A DNA stretch of 64,000 nucleotides, from positions 1,630,824-1,694,823 of the forward strand of contig NZ_KI911559.1 of the NCBI RefSeq assembly GCF_000515255.1. The letters run 5' to 3'. Shown here piece after piece: positions 4,747 through 49,561 of this stretch. The DNA is from Rhodovibrio salinarum DSM 9154. GTDB taxonomy: Bacteria; Pseudomonadota; Alphaproteobacteria; Kiloniellales; Rhodovibrionaceae. Numbering within the stretch: position 1 is the first letter of the stretch; every line of letters begins with the position of its first letter. The translations under genes were made by a program, and so were the position numbers. The notes beneath the pieces are model-generated. The model was not told the DNA's origin and searched no databases. It saw only the letters and a program-made list of their open reading frames with translations.

Positions 4747-6528
4747 CTACAGCGGCCAGACCCAGAGGATCATCGGCACCGAGACGAGCAGGATGATCGC
4801 GTCCAGCGGCAGGCCCATCCGCCAGTAGTCGCCGAACTTGTAGCCGCCCGGGCCCATCACCAGCAGGTTCGACTGGTGGCCGATCGGGGTCAGGTAGGTT
4901 GACGACGCAGCGATCGCCACCCCCATCAGGAAGGGGTCCACGCTTGCCCCCAGGCCCTGAGCCACCGTCACGCCGATCGGGCCCATCAGGACGGCGGTGG
5001 CGGCATTGTTCATGATGTCGGACAGCAGCATCGTCGTGATCATCAGCAGCGCCAGGATGCTCCAGTCCGGGATCGTTCCCGCCATCGACAGGATCGGATC
5101 GGCGATCACACCCGTGCCGCCGGTCGTCTCCAGCGCCTGGCCGACCGGGAGCATCGCGCCCAGCAGTACGATGATCGGCCATTCGACCGCTTCGTAGATC
5201 TCGCGCACCGACAACTCGCCCAGTAGCACTTGCACCAGCACCGCCAGCACGAAGGCGATGTGTGCCGGCAGCACGCCGAAGGCCACCAGCCCGATCGCGC
5301 CGGCGAAAACGATCGGCGCGCCCGGGCTCGCCTGCCGGCGGCCCAGCGGCAGTTCGCGTTCGGCCAGCGGCAGACAACCGAGCGCCTGGAAGGCTTCCGG
5401 CATCGACTCGCGCTCGCCCTGGAGCAGCAGCACGTCGCCGGCGACCAACCGCACGCTGCCCAGACGCTCGGTGATCGGCTGGCCCTGGCGGGCGACGCCC
5501 AGCAGGTTCAGCCCGTAGCGTGTATGCAGGCGCAGCGAGCGCGCGGTTCGACCTTCCAGGCGTGAGCCCGGGGTAACCACCGCCTCGACCATGCCGACGC
5601 GTTCCGAGCGGAGGTTCTCCGCCGACAGCTCGGCCTCGCCGACCATCACCATGCCGGCCTGCTTGACCACGCGTTCCAGGGCGTTGGTGTCGCCCTCGAC
5701 CAGAAGGATATCGCCGGACTGCAGGCGCAAGTAGCCGGACGGGGCGAGCATCCGATCCTTGCGCCGGATCAGCGCGACGATCGCGATGTCGCCTTGCGCG
5801 GCCGTTTCCAGATCGACCAGCCGCCGGCCGACGTAGGGCGAGTCCTCCGGCAGGCGAACCTCGGTGATGTAATCCTCGACCTGGAACAGCGACTTGGTGC
5901 CTTCCGTCTGGCCCTGCCGTTCGGTCGGCAGCAGGCGCCAGCCGACCAGGCTGACGAACAGAATGCCGGCGACCGCGACGCCCAACCCCACCGGCGTGAA
6001 GTCGAACATGCCGAACGCGGTGCCCAGTTCCTGGCTCCGGTAGCTGGCGATGATGATGTTCGGCGGCGTGCCGATCAGCGTCACCAGCCCGCCCAACAGC
6101 GAGGCGAAGGACAACGGCATCAGGATCTGGCTGGCCGCCCGGCCGGCGCGGTGCGCGGACTGCAGGGCGACCGGCAGCACCAGCGCCATGGCACCTACGT
6201 TGTTCATGAACGCCGAGCAGGTCGAGGTCAGGCTGGACAGCGCCATGATGTGCGTGGTCGGGCGCGCGGTCGCCGGCCGCAGCACACGCGTTACCCATTC
6301 GATCAAGCCGGAGTTGTGCAGCGAGCGCGACAGCACCAGGACCGCCGCCACCGTGATCACGGCTGGATGGCCAAAGCCGTCGAACGCTTTGCCTTCAGGG
6401 ACGATGCCGAGCAGCACCGAGGCCATCAAGGCGCCGACGGCGATCACGTCGTAACGCCAGCGTCCCCAGGCGAACAGTACGAGCGCGCCCAGCAGGATGG
6501 CGAACAGCATAAGCTGTTGGCTGGTCAT
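4747..6528 (-). CDS. SLC13/DASS-type permease with two RCK_C (TrkA-C) domains
   Basis: A 593-residue inner-membrane permease. Hydrophobic segments occupy roughly residues 5-200 and 400-593. They flank a cytoplasmic insert with two TrkA-C/RCK_C domains (about 215-295 and 305-385; note LRLQSGDILLVEGD and VRLVAGDVLLLQGE). The two pseudo-symmetric ion/substrate motifs are visible as FMNNVGAM with GTPPN (153-157) and DIMNNAATAVLMGP. This architecture is known from SAC1-like sulfate or dicarboxylate transporters coupled to sodium; the substrate here is not decidable. The start at 6528 fits the first membrane segment; longer in-frame starts add a sequence unlike any transporter. Its ribosome site is weak. 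Confidence 0.88.
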   Translation of the reverse strand: MTSQQLMLFAILLGALVLFAWGRWRYDVIAVGALMASVLLGIVPEGKAFDGFGHPAVITVAAVLVLSRSLHNSGLIEWVTRVLRPATARPTTHIMALSSLTSTCSAFMNNVGAMALVLPVALQSAHRAGRAASQILMPLSFASLLGGLVTLIGTPPNIIIASYRSQELGTAFGMFDFTPVGLGVAVAGILFVSLVGWRLLPTERQGQTEGTKSLFQVEDYITEVRLPEDSPYVGRRLVDLETAAQGDIAIVALIRRKDRMLAPSGYLRLQSGDILLVEGDTNALERVVKQAGMVMVGEAELSAENLRSERVGMVEAVVTPGSRLEGRTARSLRLHTRYGLNLLGVARQGQPITERLGSVRLVAGDVLLLQGERESMPEAFQALGCLPLAERELPLGRRQASPGAPIVFAGAIGLVAFGVLPAHIAFVLAVLVQVLLGELSVREIYEAVEWPIIVLLGAMLPVGQALETTGGTGVIADPILSMAGTIPDWSILALLMITTMLLSDIMNNAATAVLMGPIGVTVAQGLGASVDPFLMGVAIAASSTYLTPIGHQSNLLVMGPGGYKFGDYWRMGLPLDAIILLVSVPMILWVWPL

Positions 6529-7129
6529 GAAGGCGTTCCAGATTTGCTGGGAAAGGATGACGAGCCGAACGAAAGGGCTTGCACGAGCGCCTGCGGAACC
6601 GAGGTGAGTCGACGGCGACCATGGCAGTGGCCACGGTGCGCGATGGTAGCGCCCCAAGCCCGTTGGCCCAAGGGGGCGTTCGCGCCGGGCTGGCCCGTCA
6701 TCTGTTCCGCCATGCGGTCTGTCATGCGACGAATGGTTGATACCTTTTTCGGGGGAACGTCCCGAAAGGTGCCGCGTTCGCTTTGCCGAACCCTGCCTTC
6801 TAAGGGCCGTGGTTGCGTGTGTCCAGCACGCTGATCGGCCGTATCTATCGCGGAATCGGGCGGTTGTCCGAGTGCGGGGTGGCAACCTTGCGCTGCAGCA
6901 TAGAAGGGGGCTGCGTTGACGCGGTGCAGCGTGCGCCGTAGGTTCGGCGCTGTCTCGCGCCCGGCTCGAAAACCCGATGCGGCATTACCGTGACTCGAAA
7001 TATCGCGGGCGTGCAAGCGCATGCGCCCCGGATTTGGCCCAACTATGCCGAGCCCGCTGACCGCTGCGCAGCGCGCCGGGTTGAACCGATACAGAGCCTG
7101 GCTATCGCAACAGACGAAGGAGGTCAGAC
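6529..7129. other. long intergenic region and serC leader
   Basis: No convincing gene in about 600 bases. The right part should hold the serC promoter and leader. From the promoter candidate at 6916-6944 to the serC start there would be an untranslated leader of about 175 bases. Known biology: Alphaproteobacteria often carry the Rfam 'serC motif' RNA in exactly this position, ahead of serC-serA. I could not confirm its fold by eye. Confidence 0.45.
6916..6944 (+). promoter_or_regulatory. candidate sigma-70 promoter for serC-serA
   Basis: TTGACG (6916-6921) and TAGGTT (6939-6944) are separated by 17 bases. The -35 matches five of six consensus bases; the -10 is weak. No better pair was seen in the region. 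Confidence 0.4.
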
Positions 7130-43969: not shown

Positions 43970-44442
43970 TTGGCGGGCGCTGTTGCGCGTGTCCGATATT
44001 TGCTTATGAGTCCTGGAGGCTGGCAGGCGGCACAAAGGCGGGATAGCGCATCGGTGCATGTCGATGTCGGCCAACGCGCGATTGGCCCTGGCGCGTCAAG
44101 GCCTGCAGCGTTGAGTTCCCCTTGCAGCAAGGCCAAAGAGGCGCGGTGGATCAACTGATCACGTGGTCCATTCGTGCCGTGGCGTCGGCGCGCGGGCTTT
44201 GTCCGGCGGATAACTACTGGAAGAAGGCCTTTGAATGCGTTTAAGCTGCGGTGTCTCCATATGAACGATAAATGGAACTCACGCTCTGCGATTCCGCGCT
44301 TGAAGAACGACAAGGTGTATTTGCGGAAGCCGTAGAGATGATGAGACGGGGACTTCGCCAGAGGCGGGAGGTTGCGCAACGCTCATAAGTGGACGGCTCG
44401 GGACGTCACCGCCCGATGCCGCCACGGCCCTGGAGGTGCGTT
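43970..44442. other. degenerate region with a regulator remnant
   Basis: About 470 bases without an intact gene. Its middle carries the ROK-gene remnant described separately. The rest is of mixed composition and includes relatively AT-rich stretches (44200-44340). It probably represents decayed coding DNA plus the promoter of the GAF-Fis gene. Confidence 0.55.
44081..44190 (-). pseudogene. remnant of a ROK family regulator gene
   Basis: On the minus strand the frame reads GTNGPRDQLIHRASLALLQG then ELNAAGLDAPGPIA. This matches GTEGPPDQLIHRASLIFLQR then DLNAAGLDGPGLIA inside the intact ROK gene at 48187-49482. At DNA level about 86 bases (near 44094-44179) align without gaps to the corresponding part of that gene with about 15 differences by hand. 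Upstream and downstream the similarity is lost. It is a relic of a second ROK repressor gene, or of a duplication, not a functional gene. Confidence 0.75.
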
Positions 44443-45399
44443 ATGCGGCAGGAAAGAGAACACGCAGAAAAAGTGTTCCGCGTGGTTGGATCCAAGTCGG
44501 ACGCGGCCTGTTCGTCTCTGGCTGCGTCCTGGCGGCGCTCGATGGAGCGTTACGGGCTGGATCCGGCCTGGAGCAGGGCACCCGATCTGATCGAGGAGCG
44601 CGAGTTGGCCCAGAGGCGGGACGAACTGGGCCGGCTGATCGATCTGGCGGCGCCGAAATTGGACCAGCTTTTCGGACTTGTGGGCGCTTCGGGGTGCGGC
44701 GTTCTGTTGACCAACGAGGCGGGGATCGTGCTTGAAGGAAGGTACGCCGAGGCGGACGCCCGCACGTTTCGCGACTGGGGTCTGCATCCCGGGGCCGACT
44801 GGAGCGAGGCGTGCGAGGGTACGAACGGGATTGGCACGTGCTTGGCCGAAAAGCGCCGCGTCACCATCCATCGCGACGATCACTTCCTAGCGCGCAACAC
44901 CGCCCTTAGCTGCATGGACGCGCCAATCTTCGGGGCCGAGGGGCGCCTGCTCGCCGCGCTCGACGTTTCCTCGGCGCGGGTCGATCAGACCGAGGGCTTC
45001 AATCGGCTGCTCGCCGCTGCCGTAGCCCAGTCCGCGCAGGCGATCGAAGCCTGCAATTTCAAGTCGGCGTTCCCCGGCGCGCGCATCATCACAGCCGATA
45101 CCGCCGATGTGGATGCGGCTGTCCTGCTGGCCGTGGATGGGGATGATCTTGTCATCGGGGCGACCCGCGCGGCGCGGCGCATCTTCGGGCTGGAACCGAC
45201 CGGCCCGATCAAGCCGCGTCCTGCGGTGGATATCTTCGGTCGCGGGGATGGACCCACGGGGTTCGAGAAGGCGGAACGTGCCGCGATTGTGCGCGCGATC
45301 GCCCGTACGGACGGGAATGTCTCACAGGCTGCCCGAGCGCTTGGGATCGGGCGGGCCACGCTCTATCGCCGGATGCGGCAGCTCAATATCGACAGATAG
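44443..45399 (+). CDS. AcoR-like regulator: GAF plus Fis-type HTH, no AAA+ domain
   Basis: A 318-residue cytoplasmic regulator. The N-terminal two thirds resemble the sensor part of AcoR ([18 protein letters not shown] near 25, then a GAF domain with [20 protein letters not shown] and [24 protein letters not shown]). The C-terminal 45 residues are a Fis-type helix-turn-helix ([29 protein letters not shown]). The AAA+ ATPase with GAFTGA loop that sigma-54 activators need is absent, so it cannot open sigma-54 promoters itself. It precedes the aldehyde and alcohol dehydrogenase genes, and a palindrome lies 12 bases after its stop. GGAGG upstream decides the start. Confidence 0.88.
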
Positions 45400-45410
45400 G
45401 TCGGCGTACC

Positions 45411-45428
45411 TGTCTCACGCCTGAGACA
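45411..45428. promoter_or_regulatory. palindromic operator candidate before the aldehyde dehydrogenase gene
   Basis: TGTCTCA-CGCC-TGAGACA, a perfect 7-4-7 inverted repeat, lies 12 bases after the regulator's stop and about 105 bases before the aldehyde dehydrogenase start. It is the best candidate for binding of the upstream Fis-type regulator. No -24/-12 sigma-54 promoter was found between it and the gene. Confidence 0.65.
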
Positions 45429-45533
45429 CTGCGTGTGCATTCGCTGGTTCGGCCAGCTTTCGCCATCAATCCCCCGTGTCATGATGGTCCCTACACCGGA
45501 AAGAAGAAACCGGTGACCAAGGGAGAAACACTC

Positions 45534-47054
45534 ATGAACGTGATTAGCAAACCCGAAAGTACCTACGCCTCTCCTTTCCGGGATCGGTACGACAATTTCA
45601 TCGGCGGTGCGTTCGTCGCCCCGGTTGAAGGCGTTTACTTCGACAACGTAACACCGATCACCGGACAGAGAGTCTGCCAAGTTGCCCGCTCCGGTGCGGG
45701 TGACGTGGAAAAGGCGCTCGACGCTGCCCACGCCGCCAAAGCCGGTTGGGGCGCCACCCCAGCGGCCGAGCGTGCGAACATCCTCCTGAAGATCGCCGAT
45801 CGGATGGAAAGCAACCTCGACCTGCTGGCCCAGGCCGAAACCTGGGACAACGGCAAGCCGATCCGCGAGACCACGGCCGCCGACATCCCGCTCTCGATCG
45901 ACCACTTCCGCTACTTCGCAGGCGTTCTGCGGGCGCAGGAAGGCACGATGTCCGAGATTGACGGCGAAACCGTGGCCTATCACTTCCACGAGCCTCTCGG
46001 CGTCGTTGCCCAGATTATTCCGTGGAACTTCTCGATCCTGATGGCGGCGTGGAAGCTGGCCCCCGCTTTGGCGGCGGGCAACTGCGTCGTGCTGAAGCCG
46101 GCCGAGCAGACGCCCGCGGCGATCATGGTGCTGGCCGAGATGATCGCCGACCTGCTACCGGACGGCGTGCTGAACGTGATCAATGGCTATGGCTCGGAAG
46201 CCGGGGCCGCGCTGACCAAGAGCCCGCGTATCGCCAAGATCGCCTTCACCGGCTCGACCGTGACCGGGCGCAAGGTGATGGAGGCCGCGACCGAGAACCT
46301 GATCCCGGTGACGCTGGAACTGGGCGGCAAGTCCCCCAACGTCTTCTTCTCGGACATCATGGCCGAGGATGACGCGTTCCTCGATAAGGCGGTCGAAGGC
46401 TTTGTCCTGTTTGCGTTCAACCAGGGCGAGGTCTGCACCTGTCCCAGCCGTGCGCTGATCCAGGAAGATATCTACGAAGAGTTCATCGAACGCTGCATTG
46501 CCCGTGTGAAGGCGATCAAGCAGGGCGATCCGCGCGACCCCGAAACCATGGTCGGCGCCCAGGCCAGCGAGGAGCAGCAGGACAAGATCATGTCCTACTT
46601 GACCATCGGCGTGGAAGAAGGCGCCGAGGTGCTGACCGGCGGCGGTGCGGCGAAGATGGAAGGCGACCTGTCGGCGGGGTTCTATATCCAGCCGACGATC
46701 CTGAGAGGACACAACAAAATGCGTGTCTTCCAGGAGGAGATCTTCGGTCCCGTCGTATCGGTCACGACCTTCAAAGACGAGGCCGAGGCGTTAGAGATCG
46801 CCAATGACACTCTGTACGGTCTGGGTGCGGGTGTCTGGAGCCGCGATATGAACCGTTGCTACCGCATGGGCCGTGGGATCGAGGCGGGCCGCGTGTGGGT
46901 CAATAACTACCACAGCTATCCCGCCCACGCGGCCTTTGGCGGGTACAAGCAATCGGGCATCGGGCGCGAGACCCACAAAATGATGCTCGACCACTACCAG
47001 CAAACCAAGAACATGCTGGTCAGCTACGATCCCAAAAAGCTTGGCTTCTTTTGA
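45534..47054 (+). CDS. NAD-dependent aldehyde dehydrogenase (AcoD/ExaC type)
   Basis: A 506-residue cytoplasmic enzyme that oxidises acetaldehyde and similar aldehydes to acids. Marks: [21 protein letters not shown] (cofactor region), [12 protein letters not shown], catalytic glutamate in [12 protein letters not shown], and catalytic cysteine in [12 protein letters not shown], with two cysteines one residue apart as in the ExaC/AcoD subgroup. Length (506) equals that subgroup. ATG 45534 follows GGGAGAAACACTC; an upstream in-frame start lies within the control region. The alcohol dehydrogenase follows 13 bases later; together they would turn ethanol or another primary alcohol to acid. Confidence 0.94.
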
Positions 47055-47067
47055 GGGAGGTAGAACG

Positions 47068-48102
47068 ATGTCGAAAAAGATGAAAGCAGCCGTCGTCCGC
47101 GAATTCGGGTCGCCCCTGCAGATCGACGAGGTTCCCGTCCCGGAAGTCGAGCCCGGCATGATCCAGGTGGCGATCCAGGCCTCTGGCGTATGCCACACCG
47201 ATCTGCATGCCGCCGAAGGCGACTGGCCGGTCAAGCCCGAGCCGCCGTTCATTCCCGGCCATGAAGGCGTTGGCTATGTCTCTGCCGTCGGCAAGGGGGT
47301 GAACCACGTCAAGGAAGGCGACCGGGTTGGCGTGCCCTGGCTCTACACCGCGTGTGGCCATTGCCGGCACTGCCTGGCTGGCTGGGAGACGCTGTGCAAG
47401 AGCCAGCAGAACACCGGCTATTCGGTGAATGGCGGTTTTGCCAACTATGTGCTCGCCGACCCCGACTATGTCGGTCACTTGCCGGCGAACGTGGACTTCA
47501 ACGAGATCGCACCGGTCCTTTGCGCCGGTGTGACGGTTTACAAGGGCCTGAAGATGACCGAGACCAAGCCGGGTGATACCGTGGCGATCTCGGGGATTGG
47601 TGGCCTTGGTCATATGGCGGTGCAATATGCCGTCGCAATGGGGCTGAACGTGGTCGCCGTCGACATCGACGACGCCAAGCTCAACCTTGCCCGGCGTCTT
47701 GGCGCGGCGGTAACCGTGAACGCCCGGAACGAAGATAATCCGGCGGCGAAGGTTGTTGAAGAAACCGGCGGTGGCGTTCAGGGCGTGCTTGTGACCGCCG
47801 TCAGCGAAAAGGCGTTCGAGCAGGCCGTGGGCATGGTCGATCGCGGCGGAACCGTAGCCCTGAACGGCTTGCCCCCAGGGGACTTCCCGCTCAACATCTT
47901 CGGCATGGTGCTGAACGGTGTGACGGTGCGCGGCTCGATCGTGGGCACCCGGCTCGACCTGCAGGAATCGCTGGATTTCGCAGACAAGGGCAAGGTGAAA
48001 GCCACCATCGATACGGCGCCTCTGGATGATATCAACGCCATCTTCGACCGGATGAGGAACGGAAAAATCGAGGGCCGAATGGTCCTTGACCTTTCAGCCT
48101 GA
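47068..48102 (+). CDS. adhP: zinc-dependent alcohol dehydrogenase (AdhP type)
   Basis: A 344-residue medium-chain dehydrogenase. The catalytic zinc ligands are seen in [18 protein letters not shown] and GHEGVGYV; the structural zinc site has four cysteines in [17 protein letters not shown]; the NAD loop is [14 protein letters not shown]. It is close to E. coli AdhP in length and sequence pattern and should oxidise ethanol or other primary alcohols. GGGAGG lies 8-13 bases before the ATG. It is co-transcribed with the aldehyde dehydrogenase and ended by the hairpin at 48116-48148. Confidence 0.93.
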
Positions 48103-48186: not shown

Positions 48187-49482
48187 TCACGATTCACTCT
48201 GCACGAGTCGATTGCCGACAGAGTCGTCGGCGCCCGCAGAAGATAGGGTTTCCGTTGTGGGCGTCTGCTTCACCAACAGGTCGGCGTGCGGCGTGAAGCG
48301 GAGGGTTAAAGGCATCAGGGCAGCCCCGAGCGCGGGGGCTTGCTCGCCGACGCTGCCGGTCTCGATCGTGATGGGCGAGAGGCCGGAGAGATTTAGGTCG
48401 GTCAGCGTATGGCGGACCTTATGGACCAAGCGATCTTGCCAGTCGGCGCGCATGACGCCGTCGATCACCGCCTGCTCGAAGTCGAACACGCTAGCGGCGC
48501 AGACGACCGTGCGAGCGATGGCGGCGCCGGCGCGTGCACACCAAGCCTGGAAGATTTCCTCCCCGCGCAGATCGTCGACCCGGCCCGCGATCAGTCCCGG
48601 ACCGTCAAGGCCCGCCGCGTTGAGGTCCCGTTGCAGAAAGATCAGAGAAGCGCGGTGGATCAGCTGATCAGGCGGTCCCTCTGTGCCGTTCGCGCTGTCC
48701 ATGGGCATTGAGCCGAGCGCCCCGGCGTTGCCGCGGCTGCCGGTGTGCAGCCGGCCGTCCAGCACGATGCCGCCGCCAATGAAACCACCGACGAACAGGT
48801 AAACGACGCTCCGCGCGGTAATCGCCTCGCCGAAGTACATCTCGGCGGCGCAGGAGGCGGTGATATCGTTGTACGGGAAGGTGGGCAGGCCGGTGGCGGC
48901 CTGCAGTTCATCGGCCGGATCCGCGCCTTGCCAGTCGTCGAGCGCGCCGGGCTCGAGACCCAGTTCCGACGCCCAGGCGTGCATGTCGCCGGGCATGGCG
49001 ATGCCGATCCCGATGGTGCGCTGCCGCTCTTCCGCCGAAAGCGTGTCGAGCGTCCGCGATAGCGCGTCCTGCGCCGACGCGATCACCTGTTGCCGGTAGG
49101 GGCCGGCATAGTCCATGCGCTCGTGCGCGATGACCGTGCCGACGAAGTCCAACAGGACGACTTCCAGGTTGCGTCGGCCGATCTTGATGCCGACGGAGAA
49201 GCGGCCGCGCGGGTGCAGGGCGATCGGGGTGTAGGGCTGGCCGACGTTCCCCCGGACCTTGCTTTCCTTACGAACCAGTTTCTCCTTGAGCAGGCCACTT
49301 ACGATGATGGAGACGCCCTGCGCGCTCAGTCCCGTCACGCGGGCCAGTTCGGCTTTGGAAAGGGGGCCGCGCTGGCGGATGACGGACAGGATAAGGCGTT
49401 CATTGTAAGCCCGCAGCCCGGCGCGATCGCCGCCGCGTTGGTCGTCCGATTGCTCGCCGTAGCCGTCGGTGTCCCGCGCCAT
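48187..49482 (-). CDS. frcR: ROK family repressor, FrcR-like
   Basis: A 431-residue regulator. A winged helix at the N-terminus (about 25-90; RLILSVIRQRGPLSKAELAR, VTGLSAQGVSIIVSGLLKEK) is joined to a ROK sugar-kinase-like domain. No CxCGxxGC zinc cluster is evident in the usual place; the corresponding region reads QLIHRASLIFLQRDLNAAG. The start at 49482 follows a very good AAGGAGACGGA. It is divergent from frcBCA; in Sinorhizobium a ROK protein (FrcR) controls the same transporter. The palindrome at 49562-49576 is the probable operator. A relic of a related gene lies at 44081-44190. Confidence 0.85.
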   Translation of the reverse strand: MARDTDGYGEQSDDQRGGDRAGLRAYNERLILSVIRQRGPLSKAELARVTGLSAQGVSIIVSGLLKEKLVRKESKVRGNVGQPYTPIALHPRGRFSVGIKIGRRNLEVVLLDFVGTVIAHERMDYAGPYRQQVIASAQDALSRTLDTLSAEERQRTIGIGIAMPGDMHAWASELGLEPGALDDWQGADPADELQAATGLPTFPYNDITASCAAEMYFGEAITARSVVYLFVGGFIGGGIVLDGRLHTGSRGNAGALGSMPMDSANGTEGPPDQLIHRASLIFLQRDLNAAGLDGPGLIAGRVDDLRGEEIFQAWCARAGAAIARTVVCAASVFDFEQAVIDGVMRADWQDRLVHKVRHTLTDLNLSGLSPITIETGSVGEQAPALGAALMPLTLRFTPHADLLVKQTPTTETLSSAGADDSVGNRLVQSES

Positions 49483-49561
49483 TCCGTCTCCTTGCCGCTG
49501 ATACGCATGAGCCTGCGCACCATAGCCTAACACCACCGTCAGTATGCGTCAGATAATAACA

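Follow-up and report, generated by a model that had tools for sequence, protein, structure and literature searches.

A motorless relative of the AcoR/EatR activators as a predicted sigma-70-type regulator of aldehyde and alcohol dehydrogenase genes

Activators of the AcoR/EatR type (bEBPs) are characterised by a sensor, a Fis-type helix-turn-helix, an AAA+ domain and a -24/-12 promoter at the target gene. In the window, by which we mean the whole stretch of 64,000 nucleotides of Rhodovibrio salinarum DSM 9154 analysed here (contig NZ_KI911559.1, positions 1,630,824 to 1,694,823), a regulator gene upstream of aldehyde and alcohol dehydrogenase genes encodes the sensor and the Fis-type helix-turn-helix, and neither the AAA+ domain nor the -24/-12 promoter was found. 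This raises the question of how such a protein could turn on its target genes, and from what it descends. Considering the evidence below, we regard it as quite likely that the protein is a motorless relative of AcoR/EatR, derived by loss of AAA+, that binds a dyad and activates by recruiting sigma-70 polymerase to the aldehyde/alcohol dehydrogenase promoter.

The short regulator and its relatives

The regulator gene (44443..45399, + strand) starts with an ATG at 44443, preceded by GGAGG at 44432-44436, and stops with TAG at 45399. According to the open reading frame, Pfam and AlphaFold2, its 318 amino acids form N-terminal helices, a GAF domain, a PAS-like linker and a Fis-type helix-turn-helix. 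The GAF sensor covers residues 67-201 (44641..45045, + strand; Pfam 1.7e-12) and the helix-turn-helix, HTH_8, residues 275-313 (45265..45381, + strand; Pfam 1.8e-14), with the recognition-helix stretch RATLYRR at residues 304-310 (45352..45372, + strand). No AAA+ domain was matched by Pfam in the window protein, which bears out the first-pass annotation, made from the letters of the window alone, that had read a GAF sensor and a Fis-type helix-turn-helix with no ATPase domain. Among 47 aligned homologues, Pfam matched HTH_8 in all 47 and GAF in 46; no AAA+/sigma-54 interaction domain was detected in any of them (E 0.001). As a positive control, the same Pfam library detected this domain (Sigma54_activat) in 6/6 full-length relatives, which consist of GAF or PAS, Sigma54_activat and HTH_8; one of them is a 655-aa GAF-AAA-Fis protein encoded in the genome of the window itself. 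A sequencing deletion as the cause of the missing AAA+ domain is excluded, since the same length recurs in many independent genomes.

The AlphaFold2 model of the regulator is confident (mean pLDDT 88), and its top match in the PDB is the N-terminal half of E. coli DhaR (4lrx; TM about 0.53, E 1.6e-10), the fold match including the GAF sensor. DhaR is also the top partial match in NCBIfam, far below the cut-off, and databases annotate such proteins as GAF protein or helix-turn-helix protein. The earlier view of a shortened AcoR design holds, given this fold match and the full-length AAA+ relatives found beside the same dehydrogenase.

A scan of a collection kept 80 of 331 loci. Short homologues, measuring 311-326 aa from the aligned start, account for 53 of these (L021-L073). 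The other 27 are of the Pseudomonas type, some of them identified no further than Gammaproteobacteria, and match in the sensor half only. An ExaC-type gene lies directly downstream on the same strand in 50 of the 53 short loci, the exceptions being L022, L026 and L027. Among 58 related genomes, including that of the window, 13 matched at 1e-20, two of them to full-length proteins only. A class sample of 289 genomes gave 14 matches at 1e-25, five of them short, with the window's own among these five. In one further order (the second order below), 61 of 299 genomes matched at 1e-40; 60 loci were retrieved, the 61st being L130, and ExaC was present within 600 bp in 58 of the 60, at about 650 bp in L205 and not in L196. 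Among plasmids, 114 of 115 records matched over at least 80% of the protein, and the partial one is annotated as EatR of P. aeruginosa. An order search around G116 covered a single genome. L134, considered as a possible intermediate, was rejected as an AraC-type protein by Pfam.

In a tree built with the helix-turn-helix left out, full-length and short forms part by one change (99*), a split made less certain by several very long full-length branches. A single loss of the AAA+ motor, and in that direction, would be the simplest reading of this tree.

The proposed operator and its match to the recognition helix

The perfect palindrome TGTCTCA-CGCC-TGAGACA, which the first-pass annotation had placed just past the regulator gene, is present at 45411..45428 (a dyad, with no strand assigned), starting 11 bp after the stop codon, and we propose it as the operator. 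Its centre would lie near -72 from the predicted transcription start. In the 64-kb window it is the sole match at up to 3 mismatches, a laxity at which shuffles average 1.26 matches; it is the exactness that is improbable, about 6e-5 exact copies being expected per 64 kb from base composition. The 4.18-Mb genome contains this one exact copy and one further site with 2 mismatches.

The dyad is kept by the relatives. Across 54 loci (the window and L021-L073), the best dyad scored 14/14 in 43, 13 in nine and 7-8 in L022 and L027, the contig of L027 stopping 37 bases after the match; none of 5400 shuffles scored above 12 on this 14-base measure. A looser model of the 12 core bases (cut-off 11/12) was then applied to 128 loci. 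An ExaC-type aldehyde dehydrogenase gene lies within 600 bp downstream in 112 of these (the other 16 being L010, L012, L014, L015, L022, L026, L027, L132, L134-L139, L196 and L205), and 111 of the 112 carry a dyad of at least 11/12 core bases; the possible refutation by a lack of conservation in homologous loci did not materialise. The one left over, L204, has the dehydrogenase gene and a dyad scoring only 9/12. Shuffled regions, 2240 in all, reached 11/12 once and 12 never. From the end of the dyad to the ATG of the dehydrogenase there are 100-117 bp in 95 of the 112 loci, with extremes of 83 and 165. The dyad overlaps the stop codon of the regulator in L025, L058, L065 and L073, and L205 has a 12/12 dyad 539 bp after the stop. 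Across the relatives the arms are near-invariant while the central N4 and the flanks drift.

The position of the dyad in Salipiger abyssi is informative as to which gene it serves. In this genome exaC is apart from the regulator, yet its leader keeps a 12/14 dyad as well as GGGCTGACA and the hairpin described below, at the usual spacing; the dyad belongs to the dehydrogenase promoter, not to the regulator gene. For L027, the contig with exaC starts too near the gene to judge the dyad, and in the L026 genome exaC was not found at 1e-200.

On the genome scale, the exact TGTCTCA dyad occurs in 17 of 20 carrier genomes, once in 15 of them, twice in G064 and eight times in G065, and the remaining three have 13/14 sites adjoining exaC. 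In the second-order sample, which was chosen blind to the dyad, 55 of the 61 genomes with a regulator match have the exact dyad, compared with 13 of the 238 without one (Fisher p 2e-40, kinship uncorrected). No recognisable dyad was found near the gene of short homologues that stand next to other genes (L132, L138, L139, L012, L014, L015 and L196), and no recognisable operator in the plasmid loci L254, L255 and L257. A literature search for both half-sites returned, among the matches listed, unrelated titles; the sole exception concerns the plasmid protein KfrA, and there the letters belong to a primer list.

Position 5 of the half-site goes together with the recognition helix; in the window protein, the residue that tracks operator base 5 is Tyr308. 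With L204 excluded from the counts, T occupies this position in 167 of 168 half-sites where the helix has Tyr (RATLYRR, RATFYRR, RATLYRQ), G in 40 of 48 where it has His (RATLHRK; operator TGTCGCA), and T in 6/6 where it has Asn (RATLNRK). A second set of 17 plasmid loci agrees: G is present in both half-sites of 6/6 His-type loci (counting L256, whose C-terminus reads RATLHRK), and of the 16 half-sites in eight Tyr-type loci with an operator, RATLYRK and RATFYRA included, 13 have T, with departures in L244, L248 and L252. On the tree built without the helix-turn-helix, Tyr/His needs 3 changes; on average 2.4 of these are matched by a change in the operator, and none by a change in the opposite sense. 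Yet 3 independent changes are too few, and significance of the code across the tree was not reached. The sequences thus point to a strong association that rests on few independent events.

Several further dyads lie at other genes. L135 and L136, short regulators from another genus, are accompanied by TGTCTCG-type dyads flanked by a DUF4440 gene and a flavodoxin-fold reductase gene, the neighbours having been named by Pfam in the L135 genome alone. TGTCGCA-ATTT-CGCGACA follows the regulator in L137 and L010, and in L137 it stands ahead of a CoxG-[2Fe-2S]-molybdenum hydroxylase set. Two Maritimibacter genomes have exact dyads ahead of coxG-like genes (L107 1501-1518 and L146 1501-1518), and Maritimibacter L148 has a 13/14 dyad at 1501-1518 near a [2Fe-2S] hydroxylase subunit gene; these extra dyads suggest a second target. 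At L133, TGTCGCA-type dyads both after and before the regulator gene (5419-5436 and 6554-6571) suggest autoregulation. G065, the Tropicimonas genome of L039, contains seven identical copies of TGTCTCACGCGTGAGACA, either another repeat or a real regulon, which were not counted as a regulon; one of them (L116 1501-1518) is beside a gene that by eye resembles a short-chain dehydrogenase. Within the second-order sample, G427, G432, G442, G447 and G482, all of one family, hold exact dyads with no regulator match at 1e-40, and another regulator may use the same dyad there.

Promoter type, leader hairpin and target genes

The likely target genes follow the dyad. The first (45534..47054, + strand) encodes a 506-aa acetaldehyde (glycolaldehyde) dehydrogenase of the ExaC/EtgA type, above the curated cut-off of the ExaC equivalog, and the second (47068..48102, + strand) a 344-aa zinc alcohol dehydrogenase of the AdhP/EtgB type, above the curated cut-off of AdhP. 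In the PDB, the best match of the aldehyde dehydrogenase is EtgA (9FM9) and the second-best match of the alcohol dehydrogenase is EtgB (9FLZ). Neighbours in relatives, such as eutBC on a Paracoccus plasmid and a PQQ alcohol dehydrogenase in Methylocystis, fit a role in alcohol or aldehyde metabolism. The cassette itself is located between two ROK copies, a fragment at 44077-44202 (- strand) and a full-length gene at 48187-49536 (- strand) after adhP, which share 64% amino acid identity (1.5e-10) and 80% DNA identity over 104 bp.

No site between the window regulator and the dehydrogenase gene keeps the GG/GC pair of a sigma-54 promoter, in agreement with the earlier claim that no such promoter is apparent ahead of the dehydrogenase gene. 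At Pseudomonas-type loci with full-length regulators, a sigma-54 promoter (10-11 of 12) is present in 23/23 exaC leaders scored, the cut or broken leaders L080-L083 having been excluded. The 51 short-type leaders scored differently: 29 have no GG/GC pair, 20 score 4-7, L071 scores 8 and L065 scores 10 of 12, so that sigma-54-like sites are at about chance level; the genome of L065 (G075) does have sigma-54. In the second order the score reaches 9 in one of 60 leaders.

A different promoter emerges from the alignment of the short-type leaders. In 40 of 49 distinct leaders GAC begins at an offset of 48 or 49, counted from the start of the dyad, and leaders aligned on it read CTGAC-N17-CATNNT; among those 40 the A is conserved to 80% and the final T to 85%. 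In the 60 second-order leaders, GAC is at offset 48 in 10 and at 49 in 18, the rest having variants or nothing clear. A conserved dyad upstream of the promoter at a set spacing, as a class I arrangement would have it, is thus found in the family. The window is one of the nine leaders without GAC: in the family register its predicted sigma-70-type promoter (45457..45485, + strand, from the alignment with relatives) has a -10 element, CATGAT at 45480-45485, that fits, and a poor -35 slot, CTTTCG, that does not. Transcription would start at about 45492, placing the dyad centre at about -72.

As for the sigma factors themselves, Sigma54_DBD had no match in 15 of the 20 carrier genomes, which are mostly drafts with completeness not given. 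It is present in the genome of the window and in 7/7 second-order genomes tested, and independence of sigma-54 is therefore inferred from the other carriers. The sigma-70 reading of the first-pass annotation is supported, with qualifications. It is favoured by the carriers in which sigma-54 went undetected, by sigma-54 promoters in all full-length leaders scored against about chance in the short-type ones, and by CTGAC-N17-CATNNT at its set distance; the window itself gives it less, as its -35 is poor, a generic scan of its leader found no consensus sigma-70 promoter, and its genome has sigma-54.

Between the promoter and the dehydrogenase gene lies a conserved leader hairpin, CACCGG-AAAGAAGAAA-CCGGTG (45494..45515, + strand), with 18 nt separating it from the ATG. 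RNAalifold gave no pairs for the aligned leaders, probably since the length of the loop varies by one base, and hairpins were therefore counted per sequence, with stems compared to mononucleotide shuffles. A stem of at least 5 pairs is present in 39 of 47 distinct leaders versus 6.0 expected; the other eight have 3-4 pairs only, and in some leaders the longest stem is an alternative pairing. There are 30 different stem sequences; in 25 of the 39 leaders the distance from the end of the hairpin to the exaC start codon is 17-20 nt, and 29 of the 39 loops contain GGAG (often GGAGGA), which is absent from the window loop. The GGAG of the loop echoes the Shine-Dalgarno sequence downstream of the hairpin. 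CsrA as the reader of a GGAGGA hairpin was rejected, being undetected in 20/20 carrier genomes; the window genome has CsrA, though its hairpin loop is without GGAG. Rfam has no family for the dyad or the leader in the window stretch and six relatives. The hairpin might act as a 5'-end stabiliser or as a translational control element.

Proposed mechanism and comparison with known systems

The architecture, the conservation of the operator, its spacing, the promoter type, the co-occurrence and the helix-operator matching are supported by computation. Taken together, they are consistent with a one-component activator that would sense a small alcohol, an aldehyde or a downstream metabolite through its GAF/PAS part. 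We infer that the window protein binds TGTCTCA-N4-TGAGACA as a dimer, some 72 bp ahead of the predicted transcription start, and turns on the ExaC/EtgA-type and AdhP/EtgB-type genes through a class I contact with sigma-70-type RNA polymerase. Such recruitment would replace the ATP-driven remodelling of sigma-54 polymerase. In this view an ancestor of the AcoR/EatR/DhaR kind would have lost its AAA+ motor, and the promoter would have changed in step with the activator; sensor, target gene and overall operator form would have stayed as they were.

The dyad admits two other readings. Starting so close behind the regulator stop codon, an inverted repeat might be an intrinsic terminator or an RNA hairpin of the regulator transcript instead of an operator, but no run of T follows it and the terminator scan omits it. 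Near-invariant arms beside drifting N4 and flanks also speak against it; half-mixed versions (TGTCGCA..TGAGACA), which would weaken such a stem, are kept, and the dyad goes with exaC in the one genome where exaC is apart from the regulator, while elsewhere exact copies precede coxG-like genes. We therefore hold a terminator or hairpin to be very improbable. A repressor that leaves the operator on binding aldehyde is also unlikely, if a little less so. Small dyad-binding one-component regulators are often repressors, but an operator centred near -72 is outside the core promoter, and the promoters are poor, like activator-dependent ones. Moreover, deletion of EtgR in P. denitrificans abolishes both growth on ethylene glycol and induction of the reporter, as the main text of its description reports (PMC12214560).

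Two further readings concern the missing motor. The short protein might still serve sigma-54 if it teamed up with an AAA+ protein from another locus, and the window genome does have sigma-54 and the full-length GAF-AAA-Fis protein with a sigma-54 interaction domain, just as leader L065 combines a sigma-54-like site with a genome that has sigma-54. But the sigma-54 gene is undetected in most carriers, and a score of at most 7 of 12 in 49/51 short-type leaders, with 9 reached once in the second order, leaves such a partnership little room; we give it only a slight chance. Still less credible, to the point of being negligible, is a decaying and functionless AcoR remnant: the loss of a central domain can start decay, yet the frame is open, column identity averages 72% over 47 homologues, GAF and helix-turn-helix containing many invariant residues, and the operator is conserved together with the regulator. 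A sigma-70-recruiting activator that has lost its motor is the reading we retain.

With less assurance, we lean towards a wider history in which an Alphaproteobacterial clade of bEBP relatives shed the motor once and its target promoters exchanged sigma-54 for sigma-70, the sensor, the target and the form of the operator being kept, so that the aldehyde regulon outlived the loss of rpoN. Within the clade, the Tyr/His switch would redirect the protein from TGTCTCA operators to TGTCGCA ones, and the family would have been re-used for molybdenum hydroxylase/CoxG and flavodoxin-fold reductase genes. If true, this would be a natural case of an ATP-driven activator turned simple recruiter, with full-length counterparts at the same target gene, and the carriers with no detectable sigma-54 gene make the sigma-70 claim directly testable.

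Activation with sigma-70 by proteins of related build is known. DhaR of E. coli, the top structural match, shares the sensor and the Fis helix-turn-helix and acts at sigma-70 promoters; unlike the window protein, it keeps the AAA+ domain and is controlled by DhaK/DhaL. The response regulators PrrA/RegA/ActR have a Fis-type helix-turn-helix with no AAA+ domain and are used with sigma-70 polymerase, with a receiver domain in place of GAF/PAS. The sigma-54-dependent EatR (AcoR-type) proteins of Pseudomonas and its kin match in the sensor half, and most of the 27 loci are beside the same ExaC-type dehydrogenase, with dyads of similar form in their leaders (exact TGTATCA-N4-TGATACA in 3 of 23 scored). 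They differ in the sigma-54 interaction (AAA+) domain (4/4 tested), the sigma-54 promoter (23/23 scored), the divergent gene order and the helix RNTLYRK. In the literature searched, no AAA-less AcoR/GAF-Fis activator is described, as judged by titles and abstract openings among the matches listed. What the present analysis adds is a proposed motorless mechanism, with its operator, promoter register and helix code, and the leader hairpin, none of which was found described in that literature.

The closest characterised system is EtgR-EtgA-EtgB(-EtgC) of Paracoccus denitrificans, which shares the order of Fis-family regulator, NAD-dependent aldehyde dehydrogenase and alcohol dehydrogenase (PMC12214560). 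The window has the same order of regulator, EtgA-type and EtgB-type genes; unlike the EtgR system, no EtgC gene was identified next to adhP. The likeness to EtgR is drawn from gene order, partner enzymes and the published description. According to the main text of the 2025 study (PMC12214560), EtgR is an activator whose deletion abolishes growth on ethylene glycol and comes close to abolishing it on ethanol; a reporter under the control of the etgR-etgA intergenic region responds strongly to ethylene glycol and more weakly to ethanol and propylene glycol. That main text contains none of the terms GAF, AAA, AcoR, binding site, palindrom-, operator, inverted repeat, RpoN or motif, and elsewhere in the literature searched EtgR appears in one review, which merely repeats it. 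Asp193 and Val266 of EtgR, changed in evolved strains (PMC12214560), are separated by 73 positions; the same spacing, between an Asp of ALDVSSA type and a Val of ARRV type, recurs in 7 of the 13 short homologues listed and is absent from the window protein. This suggests the same sensor layout in EtgR and the short homologues, and concerns the sensor half, which is common to full-length forms too. The authors of the EtgR study propose EtgR-type regulators as candidates for ethylene glycol biosensors (PMC12214560), and for these the present analysis, if correct, offers an operator together with a promoter register and a protein-DNA code that can be put to the test.
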